Assembly: GCA_021324675.1 (NCBI GenBank)
Contig: JAJPIR010000305.1
Span: 1 to 34,974 of the forward strand
Source: Actinomycetota bacterium
GTDB taxonomy: Bacteria; Actinomycetota; Actinomycetes; Mycobacteriales; Pseudonocardiaceae
DNA: 34,974 nt
Reading direction: 5' to 3'
Positions 3,084 to 19,742 of this stretch are shown here, in pieces (position 1 is the stretch's first letter; the number at the start of each line of letters is the position of its first letter). A program made the translations under genes and the position numbers. The notes below the pieces were generated by a model. It searched no databases and was not told the origin of the DNA. It saw only the letters and a list, made by a program, of their open reading frames with translations.

Positions 3084-3092
3084 CAAACACAT

Positions 3093-3131: not shown

Positions 3132-3141
3132 ACAAACAGCG

Positions 3142-3345: not shown

Positions 3346-3422
3346 CTGAGCTCCCTCGCCTCGGCGGCCATGCCTGCTTGACCAGGGTAGCTGACGGGTT
3401 TCGAACTCAGAGACTGATCAAC

Positions 3423-3680: not shown

Positions 3681-3698
3681 TTGGTTCCTTCCTTTTCC

Positions 3699-4583
3699 TC
3701 AGTGATCCGGCAGAGCCGCAGTGATAAATGCCACGGACTCCTCAGCAGTCATTGACATGTCAACCAACTCATCGAACATACGTTCGTAGACCTCGACATC
3801 GTGTTCTTTTTCGAGGTAAAGATCACCCAGATGGCCCTCGACATACACAAGATCGTTGTCGTCGGAACCAGGGAAAGTTAGCACCCCGAAGGGACCTGTC
3901 GTCGCCGGGTGTGTCCCGACACTGAAGGGAAGCACTTGGATAGTGATGTTCGAACGTTGTGCGTCGTCGACCAACCTCTTCAACTGCGTTCGCATCACCT
4001 GCTTTCCCCCCACCACACGGTGCAAGGCACCTTCGTCAAGTATCAGGTGGACTCTTAATGGGTCCTCGTCAACGTAAAGCCGATCCTGCCGTCGCATCCG
4101 CAGTTCAACGAGGCGGTCAGTGGCGTCAGAGTCCGCAGTGGATAGTGTCGTCAAGACCGCGCGGGCGTAGTCTGCGGTTTGCAGCAGGCCGTGCACGACG
4201 GTGATCTCGAAAGCATGTACCTCGCTGGCGTCCTGTTCCAGAGCAACGTATCGACTGAAGTTGTCTGGCAGTAGTGGATCTTCAGGATCTGGGGCCAGGA
4301 CGTCAGAAAAGTTGTGCCACCAACCCTGGCGCTGCCCGTCCCGCACCCAGCGCATCAACCGGTCTCGATAGGCTTGGTCAGTGACGCCGTAGCGGTCAAG
4401 TAGGTCACGAACATCGCGACCTTTAGGGATGCCTTGGCCGGTCTCCAGCCTGCTGACCTTGGACACCGAACACTCGAGTTCTTTGGCTACCTCTTCGATG
4501 GTGAGTCCAGCCTGATCACGGAGCGCGCGAAGTTCGGCACCAAGCCGGCGCCGGGGCACCACTGGACCACGTACTGGGGACAT
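3699..4583 (-). CDS. XRE-family regulator with DUF5753 domain
   Basis: The 294-aa DNA-binding protein has an N-terminal helix-turn-helix around residues 15-70 (LGAELRALRDQAGLTIEEVA then VSKVSRLETGQ). The rest matches the DUF5753 ligand/partner domain: LEQDASEVHAFEITVVHGLLQTADYARAVL, an LILDEGALHRVVGG segment and FGVLTFPGSDDNDLVYVEG. The ATG at 4583 is preferred because GGTGGAGG lies seven bases upstream; an in-frame ATG at 4631 lacks one. Relatives act with DUF397 partners in development and antibiotic regulation in Streptomyces. It heads a transcript with the two DUF397 genes and faces the duplicated small-ORF cassettes, whose upstream palindromes are candidate operators. Confidence 0.9.
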   Translation of the reverse strand: MSPVRGPVVPRRRLGAELRALRDQAGLTIEEVAKELECSVSKVSRLETGQGIPKGRDVRDLLDRYGVTDQAYRDRLMRWVRDGQRQGWWHNFSDVLAPDPEDPLLPDNFSRYVALEQDASEVHAFEITVVHGLLQTADYARAVLTTLSTADSDATDRLVELRMRRQDRLYVDEDPLRVHLILDEGALHRVVGGKQVMRTQLKRLVDDAQRSNITIQVLPFSVGTHPATTGPFGVLTFPGSDDNDLVYVEGHLGDLYLEKEHDVEVYERMFDELVDMSMTAEESVAFITAALPDH

Positions 4584-4697
4584 CACGCGCCTCCACCTTC
4601 CGGCGACTTGGCCTGCGAGCAGGATGTCCAACCACGCACAGACCCGAAAGACGACACGCTACTCCTGTTCGGTGAATCGCATGAGTATTTTGTTTTT

Positions 4698-4707
4698 TGC
4701 AATTGCA
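4698..4707. promoter_or_regulatory. Palindrome TGCAATTGCA, copy 1
   Basis: This perfect 10-bp palindrome lies in the AT-rich gap between the XRE gene and the first small-ORF cassette, 128 bases upstream of its ATG. The same 10-mer recurs at 5244-5253 before the second cassette. It is a candidate operator, possibly for the adjacent XRE protein; binding is inferred only from the recurrence and position. Confidence 0.5.
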
Positions 4708-4834
4708 TAACGCTGTTGCCTACTGCATCCTAACGACGAGCTTGCACACCAGCTAAGCCCGGGTCTGCGTCGCTCCCCCACCCCCAGCTTGCGTCCGCGG
4801 CCCGACCATCGACCAAGGGAAAGGGGCGGCCGTC

Positions 4835-4939
4835 ATGTCGGCATCTCACCGGAGCGCGACACGCTTCCCCGAGGCCGAGCGAGTGGGCCACGGTCAGGAA
4901 ACGCAACGTCGTGGCGGGTCGCACCGCAGTGCACGGTGA
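4835..4939 (+). CDS. 34-aa micro-ORF, cassette 1 upstream gene
   Basis: The product is a 34-aa basic peptide beginning MSASHRSATRFPEA and ending in an Arg/His-rich RRGGSHRSAR. A purine-rich AAGGGAAAGGGG ribosome site ends nine bases before the ATG. The stop TGA overlaps the GTG start of the next gene as GTGA, the classic form of translational coupling. A homologous ORF at 5356 keeps the first 14 residues except one, keeps RRGG-HR near the end, and has the same ribosome site and the same overlap. Conservation in two adjacent copies is the main evidence that it is translated. I recognise no family. It could serve as a coupling leader or as a functional peptide. Confidence 0.65.
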   Translation: MSASHRSATRFPEAERVGHGQETQRRGGSHRSAR

Positions 4940-5202
4940 CCATCCAGGCTCTCGGCCTGATCCTGCTGGGCTGCCTGTTCGTCGGGATGTTGCTCGGGAC
5001 GACGTTCACCGTCCAAGCCATCCGGCCCGAGTTTCGGCGGCAAGCCGAGGAACGGCGCAGGCTCGATGCCGAGTGGCGGGTGATTCGGCAGGTACAGCAG
5101 GTGGTCCAGCCCAGGTGGTGTCCGCGTTGCGGGCATCTGATGGCGCAGGCAGCTTCGTACGCCGCAGTGGAACCAGTAGAGGAGGAGACGGATGATGACT
5201 GA
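4936..5202 (+). CDS. Membrane-anchored CxxC protein, cassette 1
   Basis: From the coupled GTG at 4936 the product is 88 aa. It has one membrane helix at about residues 4-29 (ALGLILLGCLFVGMLLGTTFTV), then a charged helical stretch (RRQAEERRRLDAEWRVIRQV), a CPRCG pair near residues 63-67, and an acidic tail EEETDDD. With only one CxxC, a complete zinc ribbon would need two molecules or other ligands. The open frame extends upstream to 4789, but the coupled start is preferred because the upstream part overlaps the micro-ORF in another frame. Its paralogue is the second gene of cassette 2. Function is unknown. Confidence 0.7.
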   Translation: MTIQALGLILLGCLFVGMLLGTTFTVQAIRPEFRRQAEERRRLDAEWRVIRQVQQVVQPRWCPRCGHLMAQAASYAAVEPVEEETDDD

Positions 5203-5243
5203 TGGCGCCGGCGGCCGCTAGCCTGCCCGGCTGAAGATGTGGG

Positions 5244-5253
5244 TGCAATTGCA
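5244..5253. promoter_or_regulatory. Palindrome TGCAATTGCA, copy 2
   Basis: This is the same 10-bp palindrome as at 4698. Here it extends to 12 bp (GTGCAATTGCAC, 5243-5254), 102 bases before the cassette 2 ATG. A TACACT -10-like box follows at 5265-5270. It is a candidate operator shared by the two cassettes. Confidence 0.5.
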
Positions 5254-5355
5254 CAGGGTGCTTTTACACTAGCTCGGGTATGGTCCCACCGGGCTGCCTC
5301 TACCCCAGGCACGTCCACCGAGCCAAGCACCGACCACGGGAAGGGGCATGCGGTT

Positions 5356-5451
5356 ATGTCGACCTCTCACCGGAGCGCGACACGCTTCCCCGAGGCACAC
5401 AACAGCCAGGGAATGCACCGTCGCGGCGGCAGGCACCGCCGAGCATGGTGA
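5356..5451 (+). CDS. 31-aa micro-ORF, cassette 2 upstream gene
   Basis: The 31-aa product begins MSTSHRSATRFPEA and continues through HRRGGRHRRAW. It is a close paralogue of the 34-aa ORF at 4835, with a matching GGGAAGGGG ribosome site upstream. Its TGA overlaps the start of the downstream gene (ATGGTGA). The nucleotide match in the first 14 codons includes both silent and non-silent differences, so the copies are not a very recent exact duplication. The Arg/His-rich C-terminus could bind nucleic acid or membrane phospholipid, but no function can be assigned. Confidence 0.65.
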   Translation: MSTSHRSATRFPEAHNSQGMHRRGGRHRRAW

Positions 5452-5687
5452 CCATGGCGGTAGTCGCTGCGGTCCTCCTGGTCTGCATCGGGGCGCTGCT
5501 TGGAGCCACCTGGAGCCGCCGGCTCTTAGAACGACGGCTTCACCAGGAGGCTGACCAGCAAGCCGAGGAACGTCGCATGCTGGCGAAGGAGTGGGCGGCG
5601 ATCCACCAGCGGCGAGGCGAGTGCCCCCGGTGCAGCGATCCGCTGCCAGGACCCCGCCGGATCACGTCGCGGACCGTATCCGACTGA
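5445..5687 (+). CDS. Membrane-anchored CxxC protein, cassette 2
   Basis: From the ATG at 5445 the product is 80 aa; a GTG at 5448 matches the start used in cassette 1. It has one membrane helix at about residues 4-25 (MAVVAAVLLVCIGALLGATW), a charged helix containing QAEERRMLAKEWAAI, and CPRC near residues 61-64. The layout and the QAEERR-L--EW-AI core match the first copy, but the acidic tail is replaced by a basic one. It is coupled to the preceding micro-ORF and converges on recR. A CxxC pair on a membrane anchor could bind metal or exchange disulfides; this is inference. Confidence 0.7.
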   Translation: MVTMAVVAAVLLVCIGALLGATWSRRLLERRLHQEADQQAEERRMLAKEWAAIHQRRGECPRCSDPLPGPRRITSRTVSD

Positions 5688-5710
5688 GTACCGCAATACC
5701 GTTGCAGCGT

Positions 5711-6306
5711 TCAGACCGCGCGGCGGCCGGACAGCGCGCGGCCTAGCGTTAGCTCGTCAGCGAATTCCAGGTCGCCGCCCATCGGCAACCCGGAGGCCAG
5801 CCTGGTCACCGACAAGCCCGGGAAGTCGCGCAACATCCGTGCCAGATAGGTGGCGGTTGCCTCACCCTCGGTGTTCGGATCTGTCGCAATGATCACTTCG
5901 GTGATGTCGTCGGCGCCGATGCGGGTCAGCAGTTCCCGGATCCGCAGCTGATCCGGGCCTATTCCAGACAGCGGATCCAGCGCTCCACCGAGCACGTGGT
6001 AGCGGCCGGTGAACTCGCGCGTGCGTTCCACCGCGAGCACGTCTTTGGGCTCTTCTACACGCAGACCACTCGCGGCTCACGGCGTGGATCCGCACAGATC
6101 CGGCAGGTCTGCTTCTCCGAGACCGTGCCGCAGATGGCGCAGAACACCACTCCGTCCTTGACCCGCTGCAGGGCCTCCTGCAACCGCGTCACGTCAGCCG
6201 GATCCGCGGCCAGCAGGTAAAAAGCCATCCGCTGCGCACTCTTGGGCCCGACGCCGGGCAGCCGCCCCAACTCGTCGATCAAATCCTGGACGACACCCTC
6301 GTACAC
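5711..6306 (-). pseudogene. recR: RecR recombination protein, frameshifted
   Basis: RecR works with RecO/RecF to load RecA at gaps. Two adjacent frames together make a full-length RecR. The first (GTG 6306 to a TAG ending at 6055) holds the helix-hairpin-helix ([17 protein letters not shown]) and the four-Cys zinc finger (FCAICG, CRIC) and ends VVCV. The second (to 5711) holds the rest of the Toprim domain, with [34 protein letters not shown] and [20 protein letters not shown]. The join at about 6056-6061 lacks one base relative to the VVCVVEEPKDV frame of homologues. The cause is a real mutation, recoding or a sequencing error. An in-frame ATG at 6339 is an alternative start. ybaB lies upstream on the same strand, as in mycobacteria. 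Confidence 0.85.
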
Positions 6307-6340
6307 CAGCCCATCATGCCGCACCCGCCCACCCGGCATC

Positions 6341-6406
6341 CCGCAGTCTGCATCCAGACTGCGGTAAAAGACCCGCGAAAAACAGCAGTCTGCATCCAGA
6401 CTGCTG
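6341..6406. repeat. Two identical-core hairpins between recR and ybaB
   Basis: Two 24-base perfect hairpins occur at 6341-6364 and 6383-6406. Each has a 10-bp stem and a CATC loop, and they share the core GCAGTCTGCATCCAGACTGC. They differ at stem position 2 (C versus A) with the matching change in the other arm (G versus T), so pairing is kept. They lie in the gap between ybaB (minus, upstream) and recR. No U tract follows either hairpin. Confidence 0.85.
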
Positions 6407-6429
6407 GTGATGCCGGTCGGCGCGGGGGG

Positions 6430-6774
6430 TTACATGCCGGGCAGGTTGAAGCCTCCGCTAGGGCCGCCGAGCGCGCTGGCCAGGGGGCCCATTTTCTCCT
6501 GGGTGAGATCTTGCAGGGCGCGATGCGCGTCAAGCATCGCTCCCATCACGAGATCTTGCAGGGTCTCCACGTCGTCGGGGTCGACCACTTTCGGGTCGAT
6601 CGTCACGCTGCGCACCTCTCCGGAACCGGCCAGCGTGACCTTGACCAGATTCCCACCAGCCTGGCCGGTGACCTCGGACTCGGCGAGTTCGGCCTGTGCG
6701 TGCATGAGATCTTGCTGCATCTTCTGAGCCTGCTGCAGGATCATCTGCATGTCAGGCGCTCCACCGGGTTGCAC
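6430..6774 (-). CDS. YbaB/EbfC nucleoid-associated protein
   Basis: This is a small DNA-binding protein of the YbaB/EbfC family, a tweezer-shaped dimer that coats DNA and is usually encoded beside recR. The product is 114 aa from the GTG at 6774, chosen because GGGAGGAG lies just upstream and because mycobacterial homologues start at this QPGG; an ATG at 6789 is less likely. Visible family features are the N-terminal helix [21 protein letters not shown], the strand motif [22 protein letters not shown] and [21 protein letters not shown]. The tail is Gly/Pro-rich. It probably shares a transcript with recR. Confidence 0.93.
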
Positions 6775-6885
6775 CGCGGCTCCTCCCATCGCTTCCGGGC
6801 CGCGCGAGGTAGCGGCCCGTGCGGCACAGGGTAGCCACTCAGAGCTCGATGAAACTGGTGCGGTAGGGCCTCACTTGGTCGTAGC

Positions 6886-8295
6886 GTGGTGCCCGTGCAG
6901 CTAACGAGGGCGCATCACACCCATCACGAAGCTGTACAGCGGCTGCAGGCCAGCTACCGAGCGATCCCTGCTGGGTCACCGGTACGGCTGGCCAAGCGAA
7001 CCTCGAACCTGTTCCGGCCGCGCGCGTCGACGGGTCAACCGGGCCTGGACGTGTCGGGATTGACCGGCGTGCTCGAGGTAGATCCCGCCAGCCGCACCGC
7101 CGAGGTCGCCGGGATGTGCACCTACGAGGATCTCGTCGCGGCGACGCTGCCTCATGGGCTGACCCCGCTGGTGGTCCCCCAATTGAAGACAATCACCCTG
7201 GGTGGCGCGGTCAGCGGGCTGGGCATCGAGGCGGCGTCGTTTCGTAACGGCCTGCCGCACGAGTCGGTCCTGGAACTTGACGTGCTCACCGGCACCGGGG
7301 AGATCGTCACGGCCAGCCCCGGCAATGACCACGCCCAGCTGTTCGCCGGGTTCCCCAATTCCTACGGCACCCTGGGCTACGCCACCCGGTTGCGCATCGA
7401 GCTGGAACCGGTGCGCTCGCACGTGGCGCTGCGGCACGTGCGGTTCGACGACCTCGACGAGCTGAGTGCCGCAGTGGCGCAGATCATGCAGACCCGGGAG
7501 TGGGACGGCGAGGACGTTGACTACCTCGACGGCGTGATGTTCTCCGCCGCCGAGTCCTATCTGACGCTGGGGCGGCGCGTGGACTACGCCGTCGGCGGAG
7601 CCGACAATCCGACCACCGGCCCGGCCAGCGACTACACCGGCATGCAGGTCTACTACCGGTCCATCCAGCAGCGCCGCCGCGATGTGCTGACCACGCACGA
7701 CTACCTGTGGCGCTGGGATACCGACTGGTTCTGGTGCTCCGGCGGCTTGGGAGCCCAGCACCCGGTGATCCGTGCTCTGTGGCCGGCCAAGCTGCGCCGC
7801 AGTGACGTCTACTGGAAGATCGTCGCGCTGGCTAACCGGTTCGATCTGGAGAACCGCTTCGAACAATGGCGCGGCCGCCCGCGCCGGGAACGGGTGATCC
7901 AGGACGTCGAGATCCCCCTGGAGCGCACCGCGGAATTCCTGCGCTGGTTCCTGGCACACGTCCCGATCGAGCCGGTGTGGCTGTGCCCGCTGCGCCTGCG
8001 TGGCAGGCGTTCGTGGCCGCTGTACCCGCTGAAGCCCGGACAGAATTACGTGAACGTGGGGTTCTGGTCCAGCGTGCCGATTGCCCCGGGTGGCACCGGG
8101 AGCGAGACCAACCGGGCGATCGAGCAGCAGGTCGACGTGGTGGGCGGACATAAGTCGCTGTACTCGGAATCGTTCTACTCGCGCGCCGAGTTCGACGTCC
8201 GTTACAGCGGCGAGCATTATGCGCTGCTCAAGCAGCGTTATGACCCGGACCGGCGGCTGCTGGACCTCTACTCGAAGGCGGTGCGACGTCGATGA
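6886..8295 (+). CDS. tmsA: FAD-binding 10-methylene fatty acid reductase
   Basis: The protein resembles mycobacterial Rv3719 and the TmsA/BfaA enzymes, which reduce the 10-methylene acyl intermediate to the 10-methyl (tuberculostearic-type) chain. The 469-aa product has an N-terminal FAD-binding type 4 domain: LDVSGLTGVLEVDPASRTAEV, TPLVVPQLKTITLGGAVSGLGIEAAS and FPNSYGTLGYATRLRIELEP. A long C-terminal substrate domain follows, as in DHCR24-like sterol reductases. The call rests on these motifs and on the tmsB gene, whose ATG overlaps this stop by four bases (ATGA). The GTG at 6886 has no good ribosome site; a GTG at 6895 with TAGCGT just upstream could be a leaderless start. Confidence 0.88.
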   Translation: MVPVQLTRAHHTHHEAVQRLQASYRAIPAGSPVRLAKRTSNLFRPRASTGQPGLDVSGLTGVLEVDPASRTAEVAGMCTYEDLVAATLPHGLTPLVVPQLKTITLGGAVSGLGIEAASFRNGLPHESVLELDVLTGTGEIVTASPGNDHAQLFAGFPNSYGTLGYATRLRIELEPVRSHVALRHVRFDDLDELSAAVAQIMQTREWDGEDVDYLDGVMFSAAESYLTLGRRVDYAVGGADNPTTGPASDYTGMQVYYRSIQQRRRDVLTTHDYLWRWDTDWFWCSGGLGAQHPVIRALWPAKLRRSDVYWKIVALANRFDLENRFEQWRGRPRRERVIQDVEIPLERTAEFLRWFLAHVPIEPVWLCPLRLRGRRSWPLYPLKPGQNYVNVGFWSSVPIAPGGTGSETNRAIEQQVDVVGGHKSLYSESFYSRAEFDVRYSGEHYALLKQRYDPDRRLLDLYSKAVRRR

Positions 8296-9620
8296 CCACT
8301 TCCCGAGAACGGCGCTACCCCACTGCGGCGCAGGCCCCGACGAGTACCGAGCGGCTGTCGCTGGCCGGGATCGTGGAGCTGCTCTCCGATGGCCGGTTCC
8401 CGGTCCGGTTCACCGCCTACGACGGCAGCGCGACCGGCCCGGCCGACTCCGAGATCAGCGTGCACCTGGCGACCCCGCGCGGGGCCACGTATGTGTTCAC
8501 CGCGCCGGGCGACCTCGGCATGGCCCGCGCGTACATCGCCGGTGATCTGCAGGCGTCCGGGGTGCACCCTGGTGACCCGTACGTGGCCATGCGGGTGATG
8601 GCTGACGAGCTGCGCTTCCGGCGACCGACCCTGGCGGAGCTGGCGTTGATCACCCGCTCACTGGGTTGGGAATTACTGCGACCGGTGCCACCACCGCCGC
8701 AGGAGTCGCGGCCTCGATGGCGGCGGACGCTCGACGGACTGGCGCATTCCCGCAACCGCGACTCCGTGGTGATCTCCCATCACTACGACGTCTCCAACCG
8801 GTTCTACGAGATGGTGCTCGGCCCGTCGATGACCTACACCTGCGCGGTGTTCGACCATCCCGAGGCGAGCCTGGAACAGGCCCAGGAACGCAAGCACGAG
8901 TTGATCGCCGACAAATTAGGGCTGCGGGCTGGGATGCGGTTGCTCGACGTGGGCTGCGGGTGGGGCGGCATGGTGCGCCACGCGGCGCGCCGCGGGGTAC
9001 GTGCGCTGGGCGTGACCCTGTCTGCGGAGCAGGCTCGTTGGGCCCAGCAGGCCATCGAGGCCGAGGGGCTGTCCGAGCTCGCCGAGGTGCGCCATCTGGA
9101 CTACCGGGACGCTCCGGGCCGGGAATACGATGCGATCTCCTCGATCGGGCTGCTCGAGCACGTCGGACTGCATTCCTACCCGTCGTACTTCAGGCAGCTG
9201 CTGGCCAAGCTGCGTCCCGGCGGGCGGCTGCTCAACCACTGCATCACCCTGCCGGACAACCAGACCAAGGCCCGCAGCGACGCGTTCATCGACCGCTACG
9301 TCTTCCCGGACGGTGAGCTCGCCGGCGCCGGCAAGATCATCACAGAAGCGCAGAACGCCGGCTTCGAGGTGCGCCACGTGGAAGACCTGCGCGAGCACTA
9401 TGCGCTGACGCTCACGCAGTGGAACGCCAACCTGGTAAGGCGCTGGGACGACTGCGTGGCTGAGGTCGGCGAAGCCACCGCCCGGGTTTGGGGCCTGTAC
9501 ATGGCCGCCTCACGGCTGTCCTTCGAGCGCAACGGCATCGAGCTGCACCAGGTGCTGCTGGTGCGTCCGGACGCCACCGGCAACGCGCACGTGCCCTTGC
9601 GGCCTTGGTGGCGCGGTTGA
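8292..9620 (+). CDS. tmsB: SAM-dependent fatty acyl methyltransferase, 10-methylene forming
   Basis: This cyclopropane-fatty-acid-synthase family enzyme transfers a methyl from S-adenosylmethionine to the double bond of oleoyl-phospholipid; with its reductase partner it yields 10-methyl stearate. The 442-aa product has an N-terminal domain with ATYVFTAPGDLGMARAYIAGDL. It continues with HHYDVSNRFYEMVLGPSMTYTCAVF near residues 160-185, the SAM loop LLDVGCGWGGM near 220, and IGLLEHVG and the YVFPDGEL segment typical of the family. It is translationally coupled to tmsA. In mycobacteria the same pair (Rv3719-Rv3720) sits next to dnaZX, whereas here an 8-kb insertion separates them. It ends 42 bases from the convergent multidomain gene. 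Confidence 0.9.
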   Translation: MTTSRERRYPTAAQAPTSTERLSLAGIVELLSDGRFPVRFTAYDGSATGPADSEISVHLATPRGATYVFTAPGDLGMARAYIAGDLQASGVHPGDPYVAMRVMADELRFRRPTLAELALITRSLGWELLRPVPPPPQESRPRWRRTLDGLAHSRNRDSVVISHHYDVSNRFYEMVLGPSMTYTCAVFDHPEASLEQAQERKHELIADKLGLRAGMRLLDVGCGWGGMVRHAARRGVRALGVTLSAEQARWAQQAIEAEGLSELAEVRHLDYRDAPGREYDAISSIGLLEHVGLHSYPSYFRQLLAKLRPGGRLLNHCITLPDNQTKARSDAFIDRYVFPDGELAGAGKIITEAQNAGFEVRHVEDLREHYALTLTQWNANLVRRWDDCVAEVGEATARVWGLYMAASRLSFERNGIELHQVLLVRPDATGNAHVPLRPWWRG

Positions 9621-9662
9621 TCCCCCGGCCCGGCGACATATCGGGGTACCAGGTGATGCCCG

Positions 9663-12600
9663 CTAAGCGACGCGGGCCGCACGGCCACGTTCGGGGCGCG
9701 GTTGCTCGATCGGGTAGCAGTAGGGCAGATTGTCGAGGGACTGGCCGGTAAAAAAGCGGATGAGCAGGTCCGCCATTTCCTCTGGACATTCCATGGGCAC
9801 CAGGTGATCGGCATCCTTGAAACTGGTGTAGAGGGCGCCGGGGATGGTCGCCGCTAATTTCCGAACGTACCGCGGCGGTGTGAGGACGTCGTGTTCGCCG
9901 GTGAACAGCAGCGTAGGACGGTGGAAGACACTGGCTTGCGCCTTGCGCGGCGGCGCCAGGACGCGATTTTGGACGTCGAGGTATCGCGCAGCTTCCCAGG
10001 GTGTCGCTTCGCGCAGTATCTTTTCCATCAAGGCGCGAGTTGCTTCACGGTTGCGGATGACAACGTCTGGTTTCAGGCACATGGTCGCTGCGACGATGAG
10101 ATCGACGAACCGGTCGAGCCGTCCCTGTTCCAGGATCCGGGCACTGGCCTCACGACCGGCGAGTACCTCGGCGGGGAATGAGTGGGCAGCACCGGCCATC
10201 GCTAGACGATTGATGCGATCGGGCCAGCGGTGTGCGAATTCATAGGCGATGGACCCCCCGTAGGACACACCGACCAGATTGATGCGCGGGATGGCGAGTT
10301 CATCGAGAAGATGGTTCAGGCAATCAGCGAGGAAGTCGAACCCATAGTCGCTCGACAGGTCGTCCGCGGTGCCCGACCCTGGAAGATCTGCCAGGATCAT
10401 GTTTCCCAGCGGGCGGAGTAAATGCTCGAGCCGTGGCATGGAATACATACCCTGGAATGCGCCGGTGATCAGCACGAGCGGCAGTGATTCCGGTGCCGCC
10501 CGGTGCTTGAGATAGCGATACGCGTACGTGATGCCCTGCCAGCTCAGCGTATCGGCGGCGGGCACGCCAGGGGCGCCGGCTAACCCAGCGATTGACCTGA
10601 TGGTGCGGGTGCGCAACACATCAGACCACCGAAGATCTCGACCCAGTTGCTGGCATACTCGCTGATGCATCTGAGCCATCTGTAAAGACGTTCCCCCCAA
10701 GTCGAAAAAGTCATCATCGCGCTGGATCGTGCGCAGCCCGAGGACATCGCGCCATACCGAGGCAACCCGCCGCTCAAGGTGTGATTGCGGCTGCGCCGGT
10801 TCCTCTGATGGGCAGGCTCCTTCGACCACTTCGCACGACGTCGGGGTGCCGTAACGGTCAAGCAAGCGGATCGGCGCCAAAACCCGGACCATCTGATCAA
10901 CATCATCTGGATCATTGACTCGAGCAACAATCTTGCGGGTCGACCGTGGCGGGCCCGCCATGTAGCGTCGGGTGGTCCGTCCGTCCGGATCAAGACCGAC
11001 CAGAACAAAAGAATGCGGCTGCGCGGCGGCAATGGACAGCGACAACAGTGCGTCCCGCTGGCTCATCATCTGGTAGCCCCGGAGTGGCGCCTGCCCAGCG
11101 AGCGCCATTCCCTGGCTGATGCCTGTTTCATACCACACGCTCCACCCGATGCTGCGGCATCCGGACTGGGTACCGGCGCGTGCGGCTTCAGTGTGCAGGT
11201 AATCGGCGAAAGCATCGAGCGCCGCGTTGGCCGCTGCGTATGGGCCCTGCATCACTCCACCAAAGGAACCAGTGGCGGAGGAGAAGAGCAGCAAGGGAAT
11301 GCCAGGCCGATCCATGAGGGCTCGATACAGGTTCCACGCCCCGCAGATCTTCGGCTCCAGTGCTGCGAGGAGTTCGTCGACCGTGCACCGCTGCAGTGAT
11401 TGCTCGGTGTAGTGGCCTGCCAGATGCACAGCTCCAGCGACCGCCGTCCTCCAGTGCTTTTCGGCCTGCTCGATGCATTCGCGTACTCGAGACTCATCGG
11501 TGACGTCTGCAACGGCGTACTGCACTTCAGCACTGAGCGCGTGCAATTCTTTGAGCGCCATCTCGTCGGGGCCACTGCGGCCAAGGAGCAGCAATTTCGC
11601 ACCATAGTGTGTTGACAGGTAGCGAGCGATCCGCAAGCCGATAGCTCCCAAGCCACCGGAGAGCACATAGAGACCACCGGTTACAAATGGCGAGACAGTG
11701 ACTGTCTCATCGACACGGTAAAGTGGGACCAGGCGAGGCACCATCCGGCAGCCGGCACGATAGGCAGCGTCCGGATCCGTGGTATCATCGTTGATTTCGT
11801 CAACAATTCGTTGCGCATTGGCGTTATTTTTGCCGATCTCCAAATCGAGGTGGTGACAACGCAGCCAAGGAATCTCTTGCGCTGCCGTCTTCAACAAGTT
11901 TCTCACGGGCGCCCGCGTGAAGGTGACCCGGTCCGCGCTCATTACGCGCTGGGTATGGGCGCCGACCACACGCAACGTCAAGGGTGAATCCCAATCGGCG
12001 ACGTCCAAAGCCGTCAGCAGATGGACCAACCAGCCGGTGCTCGCTCGGCAACTATCACGGATCGTCTGAGCATCCGGTAGCTGGACATAGTCGGCATAAT
12101 CCGACAAATGGAGCACATGCGCAGGGCCTTGGCCTTTCACTGCGCGCACCAGCCACCGGTAATGATCACTATTGTCCGCATCGATGACGAATACGTCGCT
12201 GGCCATGCGCTCGAAGGCAGCACCTGGTTGTGGGTGGACTGACACACACGGCTGTCCACGCCCGCGCAGAATCCGGCACAGTGCCTGGCCGAGGCCGAGT
12301 TGATCCATGAACACGACGACCGGCTCGCAAGCCTGCCCGGCGAGGCCCGGTACAACCGACTGGCTCCATGCCGGACGGTAGAACCAGGCGGGCAGCTCTG
12401 TACCCACCGCAGGCTCGGTCCGGCCGAGCAGCTTTGGCCCGTATTCCTCACTGAGCTTACTGCGCTGAATTTTGCCGAGGCCGGTCTTTGGAATGCCGGC
12501 GCGCTCGACCGGAACCAGATGATCCGGATTGACCCCGATCTCCCGCAGGATCGCCGAGCGTATGGTATGCAATGCTTGTTGTTCGTCCACGCCCGGTAAT

Positions 12601-14501
12601 AAGTGGAAAAAGACGGCGAGTTGATCGGTGCGGGAGCCTTCGTGCCGCACGGCGCAGGCAGCCGTGTAAGACCGATCGATAAAGGACAGCTCCTCTACCA
12701 CGGCCTCGATCTCATGGCTGGCGTAATTCGCCCCGTTGATGATGATAATGTCTTTAGCGCGCCCTGTGATAGTCAACCGCCCATCCCGCAGAAACCCCAG
12801 ATCTCCGGTATCGAACCAGCCGTCCGCAGTGAAGACCTCAGCGTTCACGGCGGGGTTCTCGTAGTAGCCCATGGTGACCACTGCGCCCTGGACATGCAGC
12901 CGCCCAACAGCACCCTCAGGCAGCAGCCGATCGTGCTCGTCGACAATACGCAGGCGGATCCCAGCGATCGGCCGCCCTACTTCGACGAAACATTGATTGC
13001 TACCTGCCGTTTTTACCGAAAAACGTTCCGAGTAGACAACACCGGACGATGTCTCCGCCATACCCCACACCGGCCACATGGCCGTGCCAGGCAAACCCGC
13101 GGGCTCCAGCATCTCCAGAAAGCGACGGGCGCCACGCGCAGAAATCGACTCGCCGGCATTGATGATGACCCGGACACACGACAGATCCCATCGGTACTCG
13201 CCCTTGCCGAGCCGATCCAACCGGTCAGTGACCAAGCCAAAGGCAAAATTCGGCGCCCAGCTCACCGAGGCCCGGTAACGCGACATCAGATCCAGCCAGC
13301 GCAGCGGATCTCCCAGCACATAATGCGTGGGGACATGCACCTGCGAGCAGCCCGCGCCGACGCTGTTCGAGTGCAGCATGATGACGCTGCCAACGTGGTC
13401 CAACGGCATCCAGTTGAGAACCACATCCGTGCTGGCCATGGACAGGTGATGGCTGGTTCCGGTGACCTGGGTCAGGATCGCCCGGTGGTGGTGCACCACC
13501 ACCTTGGGCGCCCCGGTGCTACCCGAAGTGAACAGCATCAACGCGGCGTCATCCGGTGAGCCCTCCCGGTACGGCTGCGCTGGGTCATTGCTGAGGAGGT
13601 CTTCCAGGCAAGCGATGGTGAGCTCACCCCATTTGCGGGTATCAGCAAAGTTACCCAACCCAGATTTGTGTGCGGCCACGGTAAGAATCGGCGGCTTATG
13701 CAAGGCACGCCACGCCGTCTCGACCTTGCTCACACCCGGGATGCCCTCCTCATAATCCACCGGAACAGCCACCAGCGCTGGCACATATCCACCGAACAGA
13801 CAACCCCACAGCCCGGTAAAGAAATGTCGGCTCGACTCCAGCTGCAGCAAGACGGTGGCGCCGGGTAACAGACCGAGCAGGCTTAAGCCCTTGGCAACCC
13901 GGCAGGCATCCCTCACCAGTTCCCGGTACGTCTGCACCCGCGCAACCCCGCCGGCGTCGACATGGATGATCGCGTGGTCTCCATAACGATTAGCGGACTG
14001 CAATAATAGCTCGACCATGGTCTCCGCGGTGCCGCACCCCGCCGCGCCGCCGTCGACGACAGATTTGACCACCGAGCGACCGTCGCCGATTCCCGATGCA
14101 TCGATTCTTGCCGCCGGTTGAACCTTATCGACGACATGGATGGCACCCTGGTTTCCCGTTGCGGTGGCGACACCAACTCGCAATCGACCTTTCCCAAAGG
14201 TACTATCGACCGTGCGTTGCCACTCATCCACTAAATTATCGTCGAGTACCGCAGGTCCACGCAATCCAAAATCGGCGATATCCAAAGCGGGCGGCAGGCT
14301 GCCGACTGTGACGACCGTCAGCGACCGTGCTGCCATCTGATAACGAGAGCGCACGAATTCAGCCAAGGTCGCTTCATCGAGCAATCCATCTGTCACAACG
14401 TAGGCCATCCACTCATCCCCATCTTTCTGCACAAGGAAACAGTCCCGAACCGTCGGGTACGACAGGATGGCGGAGCGAATCGACCGCTGGTTGTGCTGCA
14501 T
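9663..14501 (-). CDS. Acyl-AMP ligase / ketoreductase / carrier / hydrolase megaenzyme
   Basis: The 1612-aa multidomain enzyme starts at the ATG at 14501, where GGAGG lies seven bases upstream. Domains in order are as follows. First is a degenerate AMP-binding C-lobe (about 8-100). Then comes an acyl-AMP ligase (160-690) with LFTSGSTGAPK, WMPLDHVGS, WAPNFAFGLV, GWFDTGDLG, GRAKDIII and PKTGLGKIQR. Next is a type I PKS ketoreductase, structural half 705-925 and catalytic half 940-1180, with GGLGAIG, SSATGS and PYAAAN. A carrier domain (1240-1310) has DLGGTSL with Ser near 1272. Last is an alpha/beta hydrolase (1330-1595) with GVSYGG, GEHD and DADH. There is no ketosynthase, acyltransferase or condensation domain. 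The ligase looks like starter ligases of trans-AT PKSs. Activation, keto reduction on the carrier and release of a hydroxy acid is a plausible cycle; the substrate is unknown. Confidence 0.85.
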   Translation of the reverse strand: MQHNQRSIRSAILSYPTVRDCFLVQKDGDEWMAYVVTDGLLDEATLAEFVRSRYQMAARSLTVVTVGSLPPALDIADFGLRGPAVLDDNLVDEWQRTVDSTFGKGRLRVGVATATGNQGAIHVVDKVQPAARIDASGIGDGRSVVKSVVDGGAAGCGTAETMVELLLQSANRYGDHAIIHVDAGGVARVQTYRELVRDACRVAKGLSLLGLLPGATVLLQLESSRHFFTGLWGCLFGGYVPALVAVPVDYEEGIPGVSKVETAWRALHKPPILTVAAHKSGLGNFADTRKWGELTIACLEDLLSNDPAQPYREGSPDDAALMLFTSGSTGAPKVVVHHHRAILTQVTGTSHHLSMASTDVVLNWMPLDHVGSVIMLHSNSVGAGCSQVHVPTHYVLGDPLRWLDLMSRYRASVSWAPNFAFGLVTDRLDRLGKGEYRWDLSCVRVIINAGESISARGARRFLEMLEPAGLPGTAMWPVWGMAETSSGVVYSERFSVKTAGSNQCFVEVGRPIAGIRLRIVDEHDRLLPEGAVGRLHVQGAVVTMGYYENPAVNAEVFTADGWFDTGDLGFLRDGRLTITGRAKDIIIINGANYASHEIEAVVEELSFIDRSYTAACAVRHEGSRTDQLAVFFHLLPGVDEQQALHTIRSAILREIGVNPDHLVPVERAGIPKTGLGKIQRSKLSEEYGPKLLGRTEPAVGTELPAWFYRPAWSQSVVPGLAGQACEPVVVFMDQLGLGQALCRILRGRGQPCVSVHPQPGAAFERMASDVFVIDADNSDHYRWLVRAVKGQGPAHVLHLSDYADYVQLPDAQTIRDSCRASTGWLVHLLTALDVADWDSPLTLRVVGAHTQRVMSADRVTFTRAPVRNLLKTAAQEIPWLRCHHLDLEIGKNNANAQRIVDEINDDTTDPDAAYRAGCRMVPRLVPLYRVDETVTVSPFVTGGLYVLSGGLGAIGLRIARYLSTHYGAKLLLLGRSGPDEMALKELHALSAEVQYAVADVTDESRVRECIEQAEKHWRTAVAGAVHLAGHYTEQSLQRCTVDELLAALEPKICGAWNLYRALMDRPGIPLLLFSSATGSFGGVMQGPYAAANAALDAFADYLHTEAARAGTQSGCRSIGWSVWYETGISQGMALAGQAPLRGYQMMSQRDALLSLSIAAAQPHSFVLVGLDPDGRTTRRYMAGPPRSTRKIVARVNDPDDVDQMVRVLAPIRLLDRYGTPTSCEVVEGACPSEEPAQPQSHLERRVASVWRDVLGLRTIQRDDDFFDLGGTSLQMAQMHQRVCQQLGRDLRWSDVLRTRTIRSIAGLAGAPGVPAADTLSWQGITYAYRYLKHRAAPESLPLVLITGAFQGMYSMPRLEHLLRPLGNMILADLPGSGTADDLSSDYGFDFLADCLNHLLDELAIPRINLVGVSYGGSIAYEFAHRWPDRINRLAMAGAAHSFPAEVLAGREASARILEQGRLDRFVDLIVAATMCLKPDVVIRNREATRALMEKILREATPWEAARYLDVQNRVLAPPRKAQASVFHRPTLLFTGEHDVLTPPRYVRKLAATIPGALYTSFKDADHLVPMECPEEMADLLIRFFTGQSLDNLPYCYPIEQPRPERGRAARVA

Positions 14502-14711
14502 TTTTGAACCTCCATGCCATGATGTGGTCAAGTATTTAACCTCAAGGCGCTTTGGCGCATCGGATCCAGTTGCGGAGGTTTTGCAGTTCCGCGCCGGATG
14601 TTTCGGCCGACATTCACCCGATTGGGACGTCCGCCAATGTACTTTGCCAGCCGCTGCTCACCTCCTGTTGGTATGCGGTGATTTGGCCCGCGACGCGGAA
14701 AGGACATCGAG

Positions 14712-17615
14712 ATGCCGACACTGCAAGGGGGATGGCGTGTCCGTGACGGCAAACTAGGCGGAAATCGCGTCCGCGATGGGCAAGCAACCAACGTTGCGCC
14801 TTCGATATGCACAGCGGGGCCGGGAGCAGACAGGCTGTTGGAACGCGGCGCGGAGCTCGCGCGGATCGAGCAAGCGCTCGCGGCTCTGGACCACAGGCGC
14901 GGGAGCGCGCTGATCATTCAAGGAACCGCTGGAATCGGCAAGAGCAGTCTGTTGCGGGCGGTGTGCGGGCAGGCCAGCAAGCAGGGACTGCGCACGTTGA
15001 CCGCGCGGGGCAGCGAACTGGAACGCGACTTTGGCTTCGGCATCGCCCGCCAGCTACTCGAAAGGCCGTTGGTCTGCGCCGCCGATGCAGAAAAAACCGA
15101 GTTACTCACCGGTGCGGCGGCGCTTGCCGGCCCGGTACTGGGCCTCGCGGGACGGAGCGGAAATTCGTTTGCGGCACTACATGGTCTTTACTGGCTGGTC
15201 GCAAATCTCGCCGCGAAGGGCCCGTTGGTGCTGGCGATCGATGATCTGCAGTGGGCTGACGAGCCATCGCTGCGGTGGCTGGTGTATTTGTGCCACCGGT
15301 TAGAAGGCCTGCCGGTGCTGCTCGCGGCCACCACCCGGCCGCTGCGCCCCGGACACGGCCAGCTGCTGGCTGACCTGCTTACGGTCGGAAGTACACGGGT
15401 CCTGTGCCCCGGTCCACTCAGCGAGCCTGCGGTGGCCCGGCTGGTTCGCGATGGACTAGGGGCAGTACCCGATCCAGCGTTCGTCGCCGCGTGCACGCGA
15501 GCTAGCGGAGGTAATCCGTACATCTTGCGTGAATTGATTTTCGATCTCGCGGCAGACGCCATCGAGCCGGTCGCGGCGCGGGCCGCAGATGTGGCTGAGC
15601 GGCTTCCCAGCCAGGTGGAGCGGACGGTACTAGCCCGGTTGCGGCGCCTGGATGAGTCGGCCACACGGTTGGCGCAAGCGGTAGCGGTGTTAGGCGAGGG
15701 CACCGGATTGCGCCTGGCCGCAGAGATGGCGAACCTGGACATCAATGCTGCGGGAACAGCGGCGGATGCGCTGCTGACCGCGGATCTGTTCGACAAAGGC
15801 CGGCCGTTGCAGTTCCTGCATCCACTCGTGCGCTCAGCGGTGTATGAGCAGCTCGCACCCGGTGCGCGCGCCCAAGCGCATGCCCGAGCCGCGCGGTTGC
15901 TCGTCCGGGACGGGGCCGGTTGCGAGCAAATCGGCGCCCAGTTGCTGTTGTGTGAGCCAGCAGGTGACACGCAGGCCGTCGACGTGTTGCAAGCAGCTGC
16001 GGCGGCGGCCCTGGACCGCGGCGCACCCGAGGTCTCCGTTACCTACCTGCGCCGGGCGCTGGCCGAGCCACCTGCCGACAAGCACCGTGCCGCGGTGCTC
16101 GGCGAGCTGGGCGGGGCGGAACGGATCGCCCGCAATCCAGCCGCCCAAGTGCATCTGGAACAGGCTTGGCAGCACACCACCTGCCCCGTGACGAGGGCCC
16201 TGCTCGCCGAGCAGCTGGCTAATGTGCTGTATCACAGCTCCGAGTGGACGCGCTGCGCAGCCTTCCTGCGGGCCGCGCGGGCGGACCTCGGCGACCGGGA
16301 CCACAACCTGGCAGTACGCCTGTGCACCCTCGCCACCGTGCTGGACCTGCTCAGCCACTGCCCCACTGAAGCGCCCGAAGCCGCGCTTCGGCGGCTACGC
16401 GACCTTGCGGCCCGCAATTGTCCAGCCAGCCGCTGCGCGCAACTGTGCCTGGCGACGATCCTTGCCGTCCGCGGCCAGGATTGCCATGAAGTAGCCGAGC
16501 TGGTCGAGCGCGGGCTGGATGGCGGCCGCTTCGTGACCGAGGAAACCGGCGAGGCGGTGCCGGCGATGCTCGCCGTCTTTGCCCTGATCGCGATTGACGA
16601 GTTGGATCGAGCCGCTGCACTGGTCGAGACAATCCTGGCGGACTCCCGAGCACGGGGATCGGTGGTCGGCTGCCAGTCCGCTTACGGCCGTCGGGCCATG
16701 CTCGCGTTGCGGCGCGGTCAGTTGGCCGAAGCCGAGGCGGAAGCGCGCGCTGGGCTGGAGCTGGCTACCGAGTACCACCTGGCGCTGTCCATTCCCCTGC
16801 AGAGCGCCACCCTGGGGTGCACGCTGCTTGAACGCGGGGAACTCGACCAAGCGTCGGCTGCCGTCGAAGGGGTCGTGCTGCCGAACACCGGTCCGCCCGC
16901 CATCGCACTGTTGGAAACGCGGGGCCGGGTGCGGCTGGCCCAAGGGCAGCGCCAGCTGGCCATCGCCGACCTGCGCCAGTGCGGTCAGCTGGCCAGCGCC
17001 ATCGAGCCCACCCCCAACATGCACGCCTGGCGCTCGACGTTGGCACTCGCGCTGGTCCGTGACGATCTACCGCAAGCGCGGGCACTGGCAGCCGCGGAGC
17101 TGGAGTTGGCCCGCCGAGCCGGTGCACCGCGCGCGATCGGCATCGCCCTTCGTGCCTGCGGCCTGCTCGCCGGTGGCCGGCGCCGCATCGAGCTGCTCCA
17201 ACAGTCCGTCGCGGTGCTGGAAAGCTCATACGCCCGGTTAGAACTGGCGCGCTCGCTGACCGAGCTGGGTGCTGCGCTGCGCCGCGCTGGAGCATGTGTC
17301 GCCGCTCGCCCACCGTTGCGCCGCGCACTGGATATCGCCGACCGCTGCGGCGCCACCCCTTTGGTGGCACGCGCGCGCGACGAGGCGCTGGCCGCCGGCG
17401 CACGGCCCCGGCGGCCCAGGACCACCGGCGTGGACGCCCTGACCCCCAGTGAGCTGCGGGTTGCTCGCCTGGCCGCGCAGTCGCTGACCAACCGGGACAT
17501 CGCCCAAGCGCTGTTCATCACCAGCAAGACGGTGAGCGACCACCTCTCCAGCGCCTACCGCAAACTCAATATCACCTCGCGTGATCAACTCGCGCTAGCC
17601 ATGACTGTCCCCTAG
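14712..17615 (+). CDS. LAL-type LuxR-family regulator with AAA/TPR domains
   Basis: This large ATP-binding regulator (967 aa) belongs to the LAL/MalT-like class common in actinobacterial biosynthetic clusters. It has a Walker A GTAGIGKSS at residues 71-79 and a Walker B-like LVLAIDDLQWAD around 173. A long Leu/Ala/Arg-rich helical-repeat middle (about 400-880) looks TPR-like. The LuxR helix-turn-helix occupies the last 60 residues (TPSELRVARLAAQSLTNRDIAQ then TVSDHLSSAYRKLNI). The ATG at 14712 follows GGAAAGGA. It is divergent from the ligase-KR-ACP-hydrolase gene across 210 bases and is its obvious candidate activator. The first 40 residues look poorly conserved, so a later start is possible. 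Confidence 0.92.
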   Translation: MPTLQGGWRVRDGKLGGNRVRDGQATNVAPSICTAGPGADRLLERGAELARIEQALAALDHRRGSALIIQGTAGIGKSSLLRAVCGQASKQGLRTLTARGSELERDFGFGIARQLLERPLVCAADAEKTELLTGAAALAGPVLGLAGRSGNSFAALHGLYWLVANLAAKGPLVLAIDDLQWADEPSLRWLVYLCHRLEGLPVLLAATTRPLRPGHGQLLADLLTVGSTRVLCPGPLSEPAVARLVRDGLGAVPDPAFVAACTRASGGNPYILRELIFDLAADAIEPVAARAADVAERLPSQVERTVLARLRRLDESATRLAQAVAVLGEGTGLRLAAEMANLDINAAGTAADALLTADLFDKGRPLQFLHPLVRSAVYEQLAPGARAQAHARAARLLVRDGAGCEQIGAQLLLCEPAGDTQAVDVLQAAAAAALDRGAPEVSVTYLRRALAEPPADKHRAAVLGELGGAERIARNPAAQVHLEQAWQHTTCPVTRALLAEQLANVLYHSSEWTRCAAFLRAARADLGDRDHNLAVRLCTLATVLDLLSHCPTEAPEAALRRLRDLAARNCPASRCAQLCLATILAVRGQDCHEVAELVERGLDGGRFVTEETGEAVPAMLAVFALIAIDELDRAAALVETILADSRARGSVVGCQSAYGRRAMLALRRGQLAEAEAEARAGLELATEYHLALSIPLQSATLGCTLLERGELDQASAAVEGVVLPNTGPPAIALLETRGRVRLAQGQRQLAIADLRQCGQLASAIEPTPNMHAWRSTLALALVRDDLPQARALAAAELELARRAGAPRAIGIALRACGLLAGGRRRIELLQQSVAVLESSYARLELARSLTELGAALRRAGACVAARPPLRRALDIADRCGATPLVARARDEALAAGARPRRPRTTGVDALTPSELRVARLAAQSLTNRDIAQALFITSKTVSDHLSSAYRKLNITSRDQLALAMTVP

Positions 17616-17828: not shown

Positions 17829-19742
17829 TTACGAATCGATGCGCCGGGCTCCGAGCTGCTCAGCGAGTAGTTCCAGGGCCACCTGTTCGGGATCGAGGTG
17901 CTCGGAGTGCATCGGCTCATCCGCGGGCGGCGCCGGCACACCGGGTTCTTCGGAATCCGTGGGCTCGGGCGGTGCGGGCATACCGTGGTCCGGGGGCCGC
18001 GGCGGCACATCAATGCGCCTGCCAGCCGGTCGTTCAGATGAACGCTGCGGGGGCTGGTTGCCACCAGGACCGGTGGCACCCCCGGTGTGCTCGCAACGCA
18101 CCTGCCAGTCGACACCCAGCACGGTGCGCAGTGCATATTTGATCATCTCGATGTTGCGTTCCTCGCCCAGCCGGCGGGCCAGCGGGGCCGTAGGCAGGCT
18201 CAGCACCAGGGTGTCACCCTCGACAGCACTAGCAGTGGAGTTGCTGAACAACACCTGGGTTGCCCGGCTTTGCTCACGCACCGCGTCAAGCAGCGCCTGC
18301 CATACCCGCCGCACCGTCGCAGCGTCGAGCTGGCCCGGCGCCGGCTGGCCCTGAGCGTCACCTGCGGAGTCGGTGGCCGGCACTTCGGTGTGCCGCGCTT
18401 CGGGACGCGGCATTTCAGCGCGCGGTATCTCAGGGCGCGGTATCTCAGGGCGCGGTATCTCAGGGCGCGGTACCTCAGAGCGCGGCGCCTCAGAGCGCGG
18501 CGCTTCAATGCGCTTGGTGCCGGTCGGCGGCGGCGCCGGTGCACTACCTTCACTGACGGGCTGGTCTGTGGCCGAGGGGACGATGGTCAACCGCCGCTCC
18601 AGCCGCTCCAGCCGATGCAAGATGGCGCTGTCCCCCTCGGCCGCAGCGGGCAGCAGCATCCGAGCACAGAGCAGTTCCAGCAGCAAGCGGGGGGCAGTAG
18701 CACCGCGCATCTCGATCAGCCCGTTATGGGTGATCTCGGCGAACCGGGCGAGTGTGCCCGCACCCAGCGCTTCAGCCTGCGCGATCATCGTCGCGAGTTG
18801 ATCCTGGGGTGCATCGACCAGCCCTTGGCCGGCCGGTTCGGGGGCGACGCGCAACAACACCAGATCGCGGAAACGTTGCAGCAGATCGGTAGCGAAGCGC
18901 CGGGGATCGTGCCCAGCCTCGACCAACCGGTCGATGGTGGCGAACACGGTAGCTCCGTCCTGGACCGCCAGGGCAGAAACCATGTCGTCGATCAGCGCAA
19001 CGTCAGTAACACCGAGCAGCGCGACCGCGCGGGCATAGGTGACGCCTTCGGGACCTGCGCCGGCGAGTAATTGGTCCAGCACGGACAACGAGTCCCGGGC
19101 CGAGCCGCCGCCGGCCCGGATTACCAGGGGGTAGACCGCGTGCTCAATGGCGACGCCCTCGGCGGCGCATACCTGCTCCAGCAGCCCGCGCATGGTGCTG
19201 GGCGGTAACAGGCGGAACGGGTAATGGTGGGTGCGGGACCGGATGGTCGCCAGCACCTTCTCTGGTTCGGTGGTGGCGAAGACGAAGACCAGGTGCTCGG
19301 GAGGTTCCTCCACGATCTTGAGCAAGGCGTTGAAGCCCTGCGTGGTGACCATGTGCGCCTCGTCGATGATGAACACCCGGTAGCGGGACTCGGCGGGGGC
19401 GTAGAAGGCGCGATCCCGCAAGTCACGGGCGTCATCCACGCCGCCGTGGCTTGCCGCGTCGAGCTCGACAACGTCGATTGACCCGGGACCCTCCGGCGCC
19501 AGCGCGACACATGACGGGCACGTCCCGCACGGATCTGGGGTCGGGCCAGCTGCGCAATTCAGCGAGCGAGCCAGGATGCGCGCACTGGATGTCTTCCCGC
19601 ATCCTCGCGGCCCGGAGAAGAGGTAGGCGTGGTTGACCCGGCCGGCAGCCAGCGCGGTGCGCAGCGGTTCGGTGACATGATCCTGGCCGACCACCTCGGC
19701 GAAAGTCGCTGGGCGGTATCTCCGGTAAAGAGCCAGGGCCAC
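17829..19742 (-). CDS. dnaX: DNA polymerase III subunit gamma/tau
   Basis: This is the clamp-loader ATPase of the replicative polymerase. The 637-aa product begins LYRRYRPATFAEVVGQDHV. It has a Walker A GPRGCGKT (44-51), a zinc module with Cys 63, 72, 75 and 78, DEAH at 127-130, the NALLKIVEEPPEHLVFVFATTEPEKV segment, and the GGGSARDSLSVLDQ sensor region. Domain III follows, then a Pro/Glu/Arg-rich linker with a pentapeptide repeat (about 411-446) and a tau-like C-terminal domain (VRRVWQALLDAVREQSRATQVLF). The GTG at 19742 is ten bases after the siderophore-interacting gene's stop, so they likely share a transcript. No slippery site for a shorter gamma form was seen. Confidence 0.96.
   Translation of the reverse strand: MALALYRRYRPATFAEVVGQDHVTEPLRTALAAGRVNHAYLFSGPRGCGKTSSARILARSLNCAAGPTPDPCGTCPSCVALAPEGPGSIDVVELDAASHGGVDDARDLRDRAFYAPAESRYRVFIIDEAHMVTTQGFNALLKIVEEPPEHLVFVFATTEPEKVLATIRSRTHHYPFRLLPPSTMRGLLEQVCAAEGVAIEHAVYPLVIRAGGGSARDSLSVLDQLLAGAGPEGVTYARAVALLGVTDVALIDDMVSALAVQDGATVFATIDRLVEAGHDPRRFATDLLQRFRDLVLLRVAPEPAGQGLVDAPQDQLATMIAQAEALGAGTLARFAEITHNGLIEMRGATAPRLLLELLCARMLLPAAAEGDSAILHRLERLERRLTIVPSATDQPVSEGSAPAPPPTGTKRIEAPRSEAPRSEVPRPEIPRPEIPRPEIPRAEMPRPEARHTEVPATDSAGDAQGQPAPGQLDAATVRRVWQALLDAVREQSRATQVLFSNSTASAVEGDTLVLSLPTAPLARRLGEERNIEMIKYALRTVLGVDWQVRCEHTGGATGPGGNQPPQRSSERPAGRRIDVPPRPPDHGMPAPPEPTDSEEPGVPAPPADEPMHSEHLDPEQVALELLAEQLGARRIDS
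18406..18510. repeat. 15-bp in-frame repeats in the dnaX linker
   Basis: Seven consecutive 15-bp units run through this stretch. The three units from 18421 to 18465 are identical (CGCGGTATCTCAGGG) and the flanking ones diverged. On the coding strand they give the five-residue repeat P-R-x-E-x in the linker of DnaX. Repeat length is a multiple of three, so expansion or contraction keeps the frame. Confidence 0.9.

Follow-up and report, generated by a model that had tools for sequence, protein, structure and literature searches.

The enzyme encoded at 9663..14501 on the minus strand of the window (the whole stretch of 34,974 nucleotides analysed, from a soil actinomycete) carries, in one intact chain, an N-terminal A-subdomain-like region, an adenylation domain (A), a ketoreductase (KR), a peptidyl carrier domain (PCP) and an alpha/beta-hydrolase. 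We consider it, with a probability of about 0.6, a self-contained keto-acid synthetase of a single module, which would activate an alpha-keto acid, reduce it on the carrier and release the product in cis. The A domain would adenylate an alpha-keto acid of the branched-chain or aryl pyruvate type, which would be loaded onto the phosphopantetheine arm of the carrier. Next, the KR would use NAD(P)H to reduce the alpha-ketone, after which the alpha-hydroxyacyl group would be removed in cis by the fused hydrolase, either as the free acid or by transfer to an alcohol. Keto acid in and carrier-bound hydroxy acid out is a well-supported prediction; release by the hydrolase is likewise predicted. In its first three steps the enzyme follows a known type, found in the free-standing A-KR-PCP proteins AerA and AulA, while the solitary, apparently mobile and self-releasing form is unusual.

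The coding sequence runs from an ATG at 14501 to a stop at 9663 (1612 aa). With a GGAGG upstream of it, this ATG is a better start than the TTG at 14531, where the mechanical ORF begins (9663-14531, 1622 aa); residue numbers are counted from the TTG throughout. The plus frame over 9663-14501 is full of stops, and the coding strand is the minus strand. The span given by the first-pass annotation ends at the same ATG and is retained here, but that annotation left the strand unsaid and the N-terminal A-subdomain-like region unnamed.

Pfam models placed AMP-binding at residues 178-557 (169.9 bits, cut-off 29.9), KR (PF08659) at residues 953-1133 (131.8 bits, cut-off 22.6), PP-binding (PF00550) at residues 1255-1316 (41.3 bits, cut-off 20.8) and Abhydrolase_1 (PF00561) at residues 1351-1581 (69.4-76.1 bits, cut-off 25.8). 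No ketosynthase (KS) or Condensation (C) domain was found in the enzyme by this search, and none of the 6 KS-model places or 33 Condensation places in the genome lies on its contig (C295). The protein is free-standing and without a KS, as first described. A, KR and PCP follow each other in this order with all predicted catalytic residues intact, and the earlier statement that the motifs of all four activities are whole was confirmed at Lys687 of the A domain, K1061/S1085/Y1098/N1102 of the KR, Ser1282 of the carrier and S1423/D1548/H1576 of the hydrolase. Motif names and residue roles follow what we take to be common family knowledge, together with family alignments.

The A domain (residues 169-700; 12432..14027, minus strand), delimited by Pfam, StsA alignment and pocket comparison, contains the motifs A3 (TSGSTG), A5 (WGMAE), A7 (TGDLG) and A10 (Lys687). 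Its best match of solved structure is StsA (6ulw, E 1.7e-174), continuous through residues 169-1182 and thus spanning A and KR; McyG (4r0m) comes second. For the A domain alone the two are alike (406.6 bits for McyG vs 402.3 bits for the StsA A-domain entry). The pocket residues are V380, G381, I384, W425, N458, G460, V488, M491, S496, G497 and K687, and the ten-position code obtained by alignment is V-G-I-W-N-G-V-S-G-K. V380 falls at position 235 and M491 at position 325, where amino-acid A domains have Asp and Pro, respectively; a hydrophobic residue in place of Asp235 and a non-Pro residue at 325 are therefore both seen. In StsA, I306 replaces the amino-binding Asp and M415 the conserved Pro, according to the available portion of PMC11253843. 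The same Val and Met recur in each of the 14 further related A domains in the comparison, of which 13 belong to A-KR modules. Published codes are V-G-M-W-N-G-V-S-V-K for CesB-A1, V-G-M-W-N-G-A-S-V-K for PksJ and V-G-M-T-I-G-A-S-G-K for PyrG-A2 (PMC5238615, Table 1).

The likeness to trans-AT starter ligases such as PksJ, noted on first pass, holds for the pocket, with 7/10 code positions the same as in PksJ (PMC5238615, Table 1), but the whole architecture is that of A-KR-PCP depsipeptide modules. Models of fatty acyl-AMP ligase (FAAL) type reached 249.1 bits at best, far below their cut-off of 600; a FAAL identity was rejected, and the ligase appears to belong with the StsA/McyG A domains. 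The pocket code is no proof of keto-acid use, because McyG shares the V/M pair and most other pocket residues, and the side chain cannot be read from it, because the code is nearly identical across the A-KR modules compared. McyG acts on phenylpropanoids and is not known to carry a KR next to its A domain. It is the A-KR architecture and the pocket taken together that predict a keto acid as substrate; both features, of StsA type, support the first-pass suggestion that a hydroxy acid is made from a keto acid.

The N-terminal A-subdomain-like region (residues 17-110; 14202..14483, minus strand) is probably the N-half of a split pseudo-Asub, as judged from alignment with relatives and a profile match. 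In work on StsA ascribed to Alonzo et al. in 2020, the pseudo-Asub of such modules is said to be split in two halves flanking A and KR. Residues 17-110 align with the N-terminal region of 7 A-KR modules besides L007 (the 75%-identical relative described below), and 3 of the aligned relatives match PF13193 (A-subdomain) there. In the PDB, an 8-sequence profile of the region matched the A-subdomain of LgrA (linear gramicidin synthetase) with E 2e-20; StsA was not among the best 60 of 92 PDB matches listed. The window sequence alone reached E 0.0082 with the Pfam A-subdomain model, below the cut-off, and the L007 stretch gave no match to that model. The KR is made up of a structural subdomain (residues 720-945; 11697..12374, minus strand), placed by StsA alignment and by PF21394 at residues 758-910 (25.5 bits, just below the 26.9 cut-off), and a catalytic subdomain (residues 946-1140; 11112..11696, minus strand), which holds the PF08659 match, the four KR residues named above and the motif GGLGAIG. 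The post-KR region (residues 1185-1250; 10782..10979, minus strand) is by alignment the expected place of the C-half of the pseudo-Asub. It is about 20 residues shorter than in the 7 relatives, none of them StsA, so the split pseudo-Asub may be reduced. The carrier (residues 1251-1320; 10572..10781, minus strand; PF00550) has its Ser1282 in LGGTS.

Selection was estimated from one pair, window vs L007, by a simple counting method, and gave an overall dN/dS of 0.173. The value was lowest for the hydrolase (0.122), followed by the KR (0.168), the PCP (0.169), the A domain (residues 240-700; 0.179), the KR structural part (0.208), the N-terminal region (0.261) and the linker (residues 111-168; 0.302); the post-KR region gave 0.136, with a dS of 1.37 near saturation. 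All domains of the enzyme are under purifying selection, the hydrolase most. Such values (0.12-0.26 for the named domains, 0.302 for the linker), obtained with a relative at 75% identity, show that the ORF is not a chance one.

StsA, an A-KR-T initiation module, shares with the window enzyme the A-KR-carrier order, the continuous A + KR alignment and the matching key pocket positions, and the N-terminal region would fit the split pseudo-Asub ascribed to it. StsA acts in a keto-acid depsipeptide assembly line, whereas the window enzyme has no C partner and a fused hydrolase. AerA (aeruginosin), of A-KR-carrier make-up, loads phenylpyruvate and reduces it (available part of PMC10143770), and AulA (auriculamide) is a loading protein that activates 3-methyl-2-oxovalerate (PMC5238615). 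Both lack KS and C domains and use an alpha-keto acid, as predicted for the window enzyme, but they sit in NRPS clusters and hand their unit on to a C domain. An additional A domain is present in AulA, and no hydrolase domain is described for either protein in the portions available of PMC10143770 and PMC5238615. NatD (neoantimycin) is a single-module C-A-KR-T-TE protein in the available text of PMC6117356 and PMC11355689. The same-genus L035 encodes C-A-KR-PCP-TE with a canonical PF00975 thioesterase; both have the C domain that the window enzyme lacks, and the window hydrolase differs from the canonical TE of L035. L013 (Nostoc ATCC 53789) is, with NatD, a KR-module protein ending in a release domain, as is the window enzyme; we take it to be a CrpD-like terminal module, the CrpD name, its TE and its leucic-acid role being assumed. 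The window enzyme can be described as a NatD that lacks the C domain and ends in a different release domain, or as an AerA plus a hydrolase. In the limited set of open-licence literature searched, we recognised no A-KR-carrier protein that lacks a C domain and has a release domain fused to it. In the literature covered, partly available as excerpts, A-KR-carrier modules for keto acids belong to assembly lines that make depsipeptides or peptides. One that stands alone, with a release domain and a regulator of its own, would offer a minimal test bed for release, for trade to synthetases or for C-free self-joining, and could also serve as a compact source of chiral hydroxy acids.

A pattern scan over the contigs of 84,980 species, which reaches close relatives only, returned 5 loci: L007 (75% identity; the copy of genome G002), L008 (73%, C-terminal piece only; the copy of G006) and 3 distant partial matches. 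In a search of 11 genomes of the genus, dnaX was found in 9 at E 1e-80, and those 9 loci were read. The enzyme and a divergent LAL-type regulator identified by domain search (AAA_16 + LuxR HTH, 967 aa; 14712..17615, plus strand) form a two-gene cassette beside dnaX in 3 of the 9 (G000, G002 and, as a remnant, G006). It lies between dnaX and a CFA-type methyltransferase gene in G000, where it is intact, and in G002, where the enzyme gene is split over two frames. In G006, whose contig ends there, the enzyme gene is a remnant that covers residue 1115 onwards and contains a stop and a frame break; the C-terminal part of the regulator is matched there too. dnaX is directly next to CFA, with no cassette, in G001, G003, G005 and G008, and other DNA fills the interval in G007 (1.5 kb) and G004 (7.4 kb), making it a possible insertion hot spot. 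Absence of the cassette from the empty genomes could mean loss rather than lack of gain. By eye, the G004 insert (L054 2471-9863) holds ORFs for an HTH protein, an acetyltransferase-like and a Ser/Thr kinase-like protein.

Enzyme and regulator share the divergent promoter region 14502..14711, an intergenic span in which no sigma-70-like match was found. The promoter scan (3 promoter-like matches vs a mean of 1.5 in shuffles), the terminator scan (7 vs 5.8) and the repeat scan gave nothing of note. By eye, dnaX (17829-19742, minus strand) has a tandem PRPEI-type linker repeat that differs in L007 and L008. A FAD-binding oxidase and the CFA-type methyltransferase (6886-9620, plus strand) overlap by four bases and resemble what we take to be a 10-methyl fatty acid pair. 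They were rejected as pathway partners, because 6 genomes of the genus that lack the cassette keep the pair in the dnaX-recR interval. recR itself (5714-6324, minus strand) appears in the window as two tblastn pieces in different frames and is a single ORF in L007; this frame break or assembly indel calls for caution over single-base breaks in these drafts, including that of the L007 enzyme gene.

Further afield we compared 12 distant A-KR modules, 6 on plasmid records (L012, L013, L014, L080, L081, L082), taken among the matches listed (20 of 27), and 6 in genomes (L018, L035, L036, L037, L083, L084). Ten of the 12 are beside NRPS/PKS genes, as judged by annotation or further A-domain matches (for L037 by reading the adjoining ORF); of the others, L018 is a 5.4-kb contig and L082 shows ACP, MbtH and thioesterase only. 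Had the homologues always stood next to KS-containing genes as ordinary loading modules, the first-pass reading would have fallen; L007 and L008 have the same housekeeping neighbours as the window, while the setting of most of the distant modules weakens that reading. Discrete PF00975 thioesterase genes adjoin free-standing A-KR-PCP genes in L081 and L082. In the latter (978-9636; Pseudonocardia plasmid pFRP1-1), chlorinating-enzyme, ACP and MbtH genes are nearby, and no NRPS gene is annotated within 13.7 kb. In the A-domain tree the window and L007 pair on a long branch (100/100) and group with same-genus modules and one KR-less A domain (92/98, below the strict mark); in the KR tree the pair falls within an unresolved group of actinobacterial modules (91/96). 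One A-domain ORF, L085 5689-7344 (G007:C121), is 42% identical to the window A domain, with no KR match in the 12-kb stretch.

These relatives bear on an unlikely alternative, in which the enzyme would supply a starter in trans to the C domain of an NRPS elsewhere and the hydrolase would only clear misloaded carriers, like a type II thioesterase. The genome has C-domain matches (the 33 above), most of the distant modules adjoin NRPS/PKS genes, separate thioesterase genes accompany the modules of L081 and L082, and AerA (PMC10143770, in the part available) and AulA (PMC5238615) are themselves loading proteins. However, the contig is without a KS or C match and L007 shares the flanking genes, unlike the setting of AerA/AulA-type loading proteins, which are encoded beside the NRPS that takes their unit; the cassette sits among housekeeping genes, and the hydrolase is fused and the most constrained domain. 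The KS proteins of contig C325 were also considered as partners, and their domain make-up gave no lead. That locus (L039 6529-17995; G000:C325) encodes a pair of large PKS-type proteins: the first combines a nitronate-monooxygenase-type domain with KS-AT-KR, the second KS-DH with a terminal phosphopantetheinyl transferase domain (ACPS). They resemble a PUFA-type synthase.

The hydrolase (residues 1328-1600; 9732..10550, minus strand; PF00561 and family alignment) has S1423 in GVSYGG, with D1548 and H1576. The thioesterase model PF00975 reached 21.8 bits, below the 26.4 cut-off, and the domain does not appear to be a canonical NRPS thioesterase. The nearest PDB sequences are esterases and the nearest NCBI models enol-lactonases, with PHA depolymerases and a few acyltransferases, all far below cut-off; a structure model from 2 sequences (mean pLDDT 40.7) was unusable. 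Relatives at 29-37% identity are free-standing proteins (L071, L072 and L073 from Streptomyces). ACP and KS genes adjoin in 4 of the 9 loci read (L071, L073, L078, L079) and a KAS III gene in a fifth (L075), which fits action on carrier-bound acyl groups; no ACP, KS or KAS III was found by tblastn at 1e-4 in the other four (L072, L074, L076, L077). The link to carrier-bound substrates is suggestive only, because the hydrolases linked to ACP and KS genes show the lower identity to the fused one (29-34%), while among the four most similar (about 36%) L074, L076 and L077 have no ACP or KS neighbour and L075 has KAS III. The ACP-KS-hydrolase gene sets (L071 3149-5639; L073 6444-8873; L078 6028-8453; L079 7365-9797) encode a kindred hydrolase, but a free-standing one with a ketosynthase. 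A PCP-hydrolase query gave matches in 6/246 sampled genomes of the class and 8/396 of the phylum (overlapping samples, few candidates scored per genome), and among these the match ran through the carrier only in the window's own genome. The L007 copy is also hydrolase-fused, G002 being evidently outside these samples.

The esterase/lactonase-like character of the hydrolase, its score below the thioesterase cut-off and the scarcity of ACP/KS genes beside its closest free-standing kin count against the reading as a self-contained keto-acid synthetase, as does the waste of ATP on a free hydroxy acid obtainable with a dehydrogenase. That ATP would not be wasted if the hydrolase were an acyltransferase joining at least two hydroxyacyl units (linear or cyclic) or esterifying another alcohol. 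In fungal A-T-TE enzymes the TE joins two aryl alpha-keto acids with no C domain (PMC9047271, available part); these non-reducing NRPS-like proteins are also one-module and C-less, with an alpha-keto acid and a release domain, but have no KR, which here would give the hydroxyl. The lactonases, PHA depolymerases and acyltransferases among the nearest NCBI models point the same way, all at scores far below cut-off, and the shortfall against the Pfam thioesterase model speaks against ester formation, which we consider quite unlikely. A doubtful extension is a C-free one-protein ester synthase whose lactonase-like hydrolase joins hydroxyacyl units into a small, perhaps cyclic ester, made by an LAL-switched mobile two-gene unit, possibly as a signal.

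It is highly improbable that the enzyme is an ordinary starter ligase of the trans-AT-PKS or FAAL type that activates a fatty acid or another non-keto acid and whose KR is idle or beta-reducing. The A domain is equally close to McyG, and the PksJ KR structure (4j1q) is among the PDB matches at 99.7 bits, but the FAAL scores are far too low and the A-KR alignment is continuous along StsA. The PksJ KR reduces alpha and beta ketones. A trans-AT PKS loading module has a downstream ketosynthase, and there is none in the window enzyme or matched on its contig; an A-KR-ACP loading module within a PKS is described in the available text of PMC4551226.

Among the 3 copies found of the gene, one is split over two frames and another is a mostly missing remnant with a stop and a frame break, which counts against the synthetase reading too. 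The window copy, however, is unbroken over its 1612 codons, and the overall dN/dS of 0.173 indicates purifying selection, so that a decaying gene without present role is scarcely credible.

Between window and L007, the enzyme (from residue 237) has a dS of 0.87 and the regulator one of 0.71, against 0.25-0.35 for the flanking dnaX, CFA, FAD-oxidase and siderophore-interacting protein genes. The synonymous divergence of the cassette is thus 2 to 3.5 times that of its flanks, and the cassette therefore probably moved; exchange or separate acquisition in the two lineages is the simplest reading. The enzyme gene has a GC content of 61.1% and a GC3 of 69.3%, the corresponding values being 67.4-69.0% and 75.2-87.1% for the regulator, dnaX, CFA, FAD-oxidase and siderophore-interacting protein genes, and 63.9% and 81.6% for leuA.
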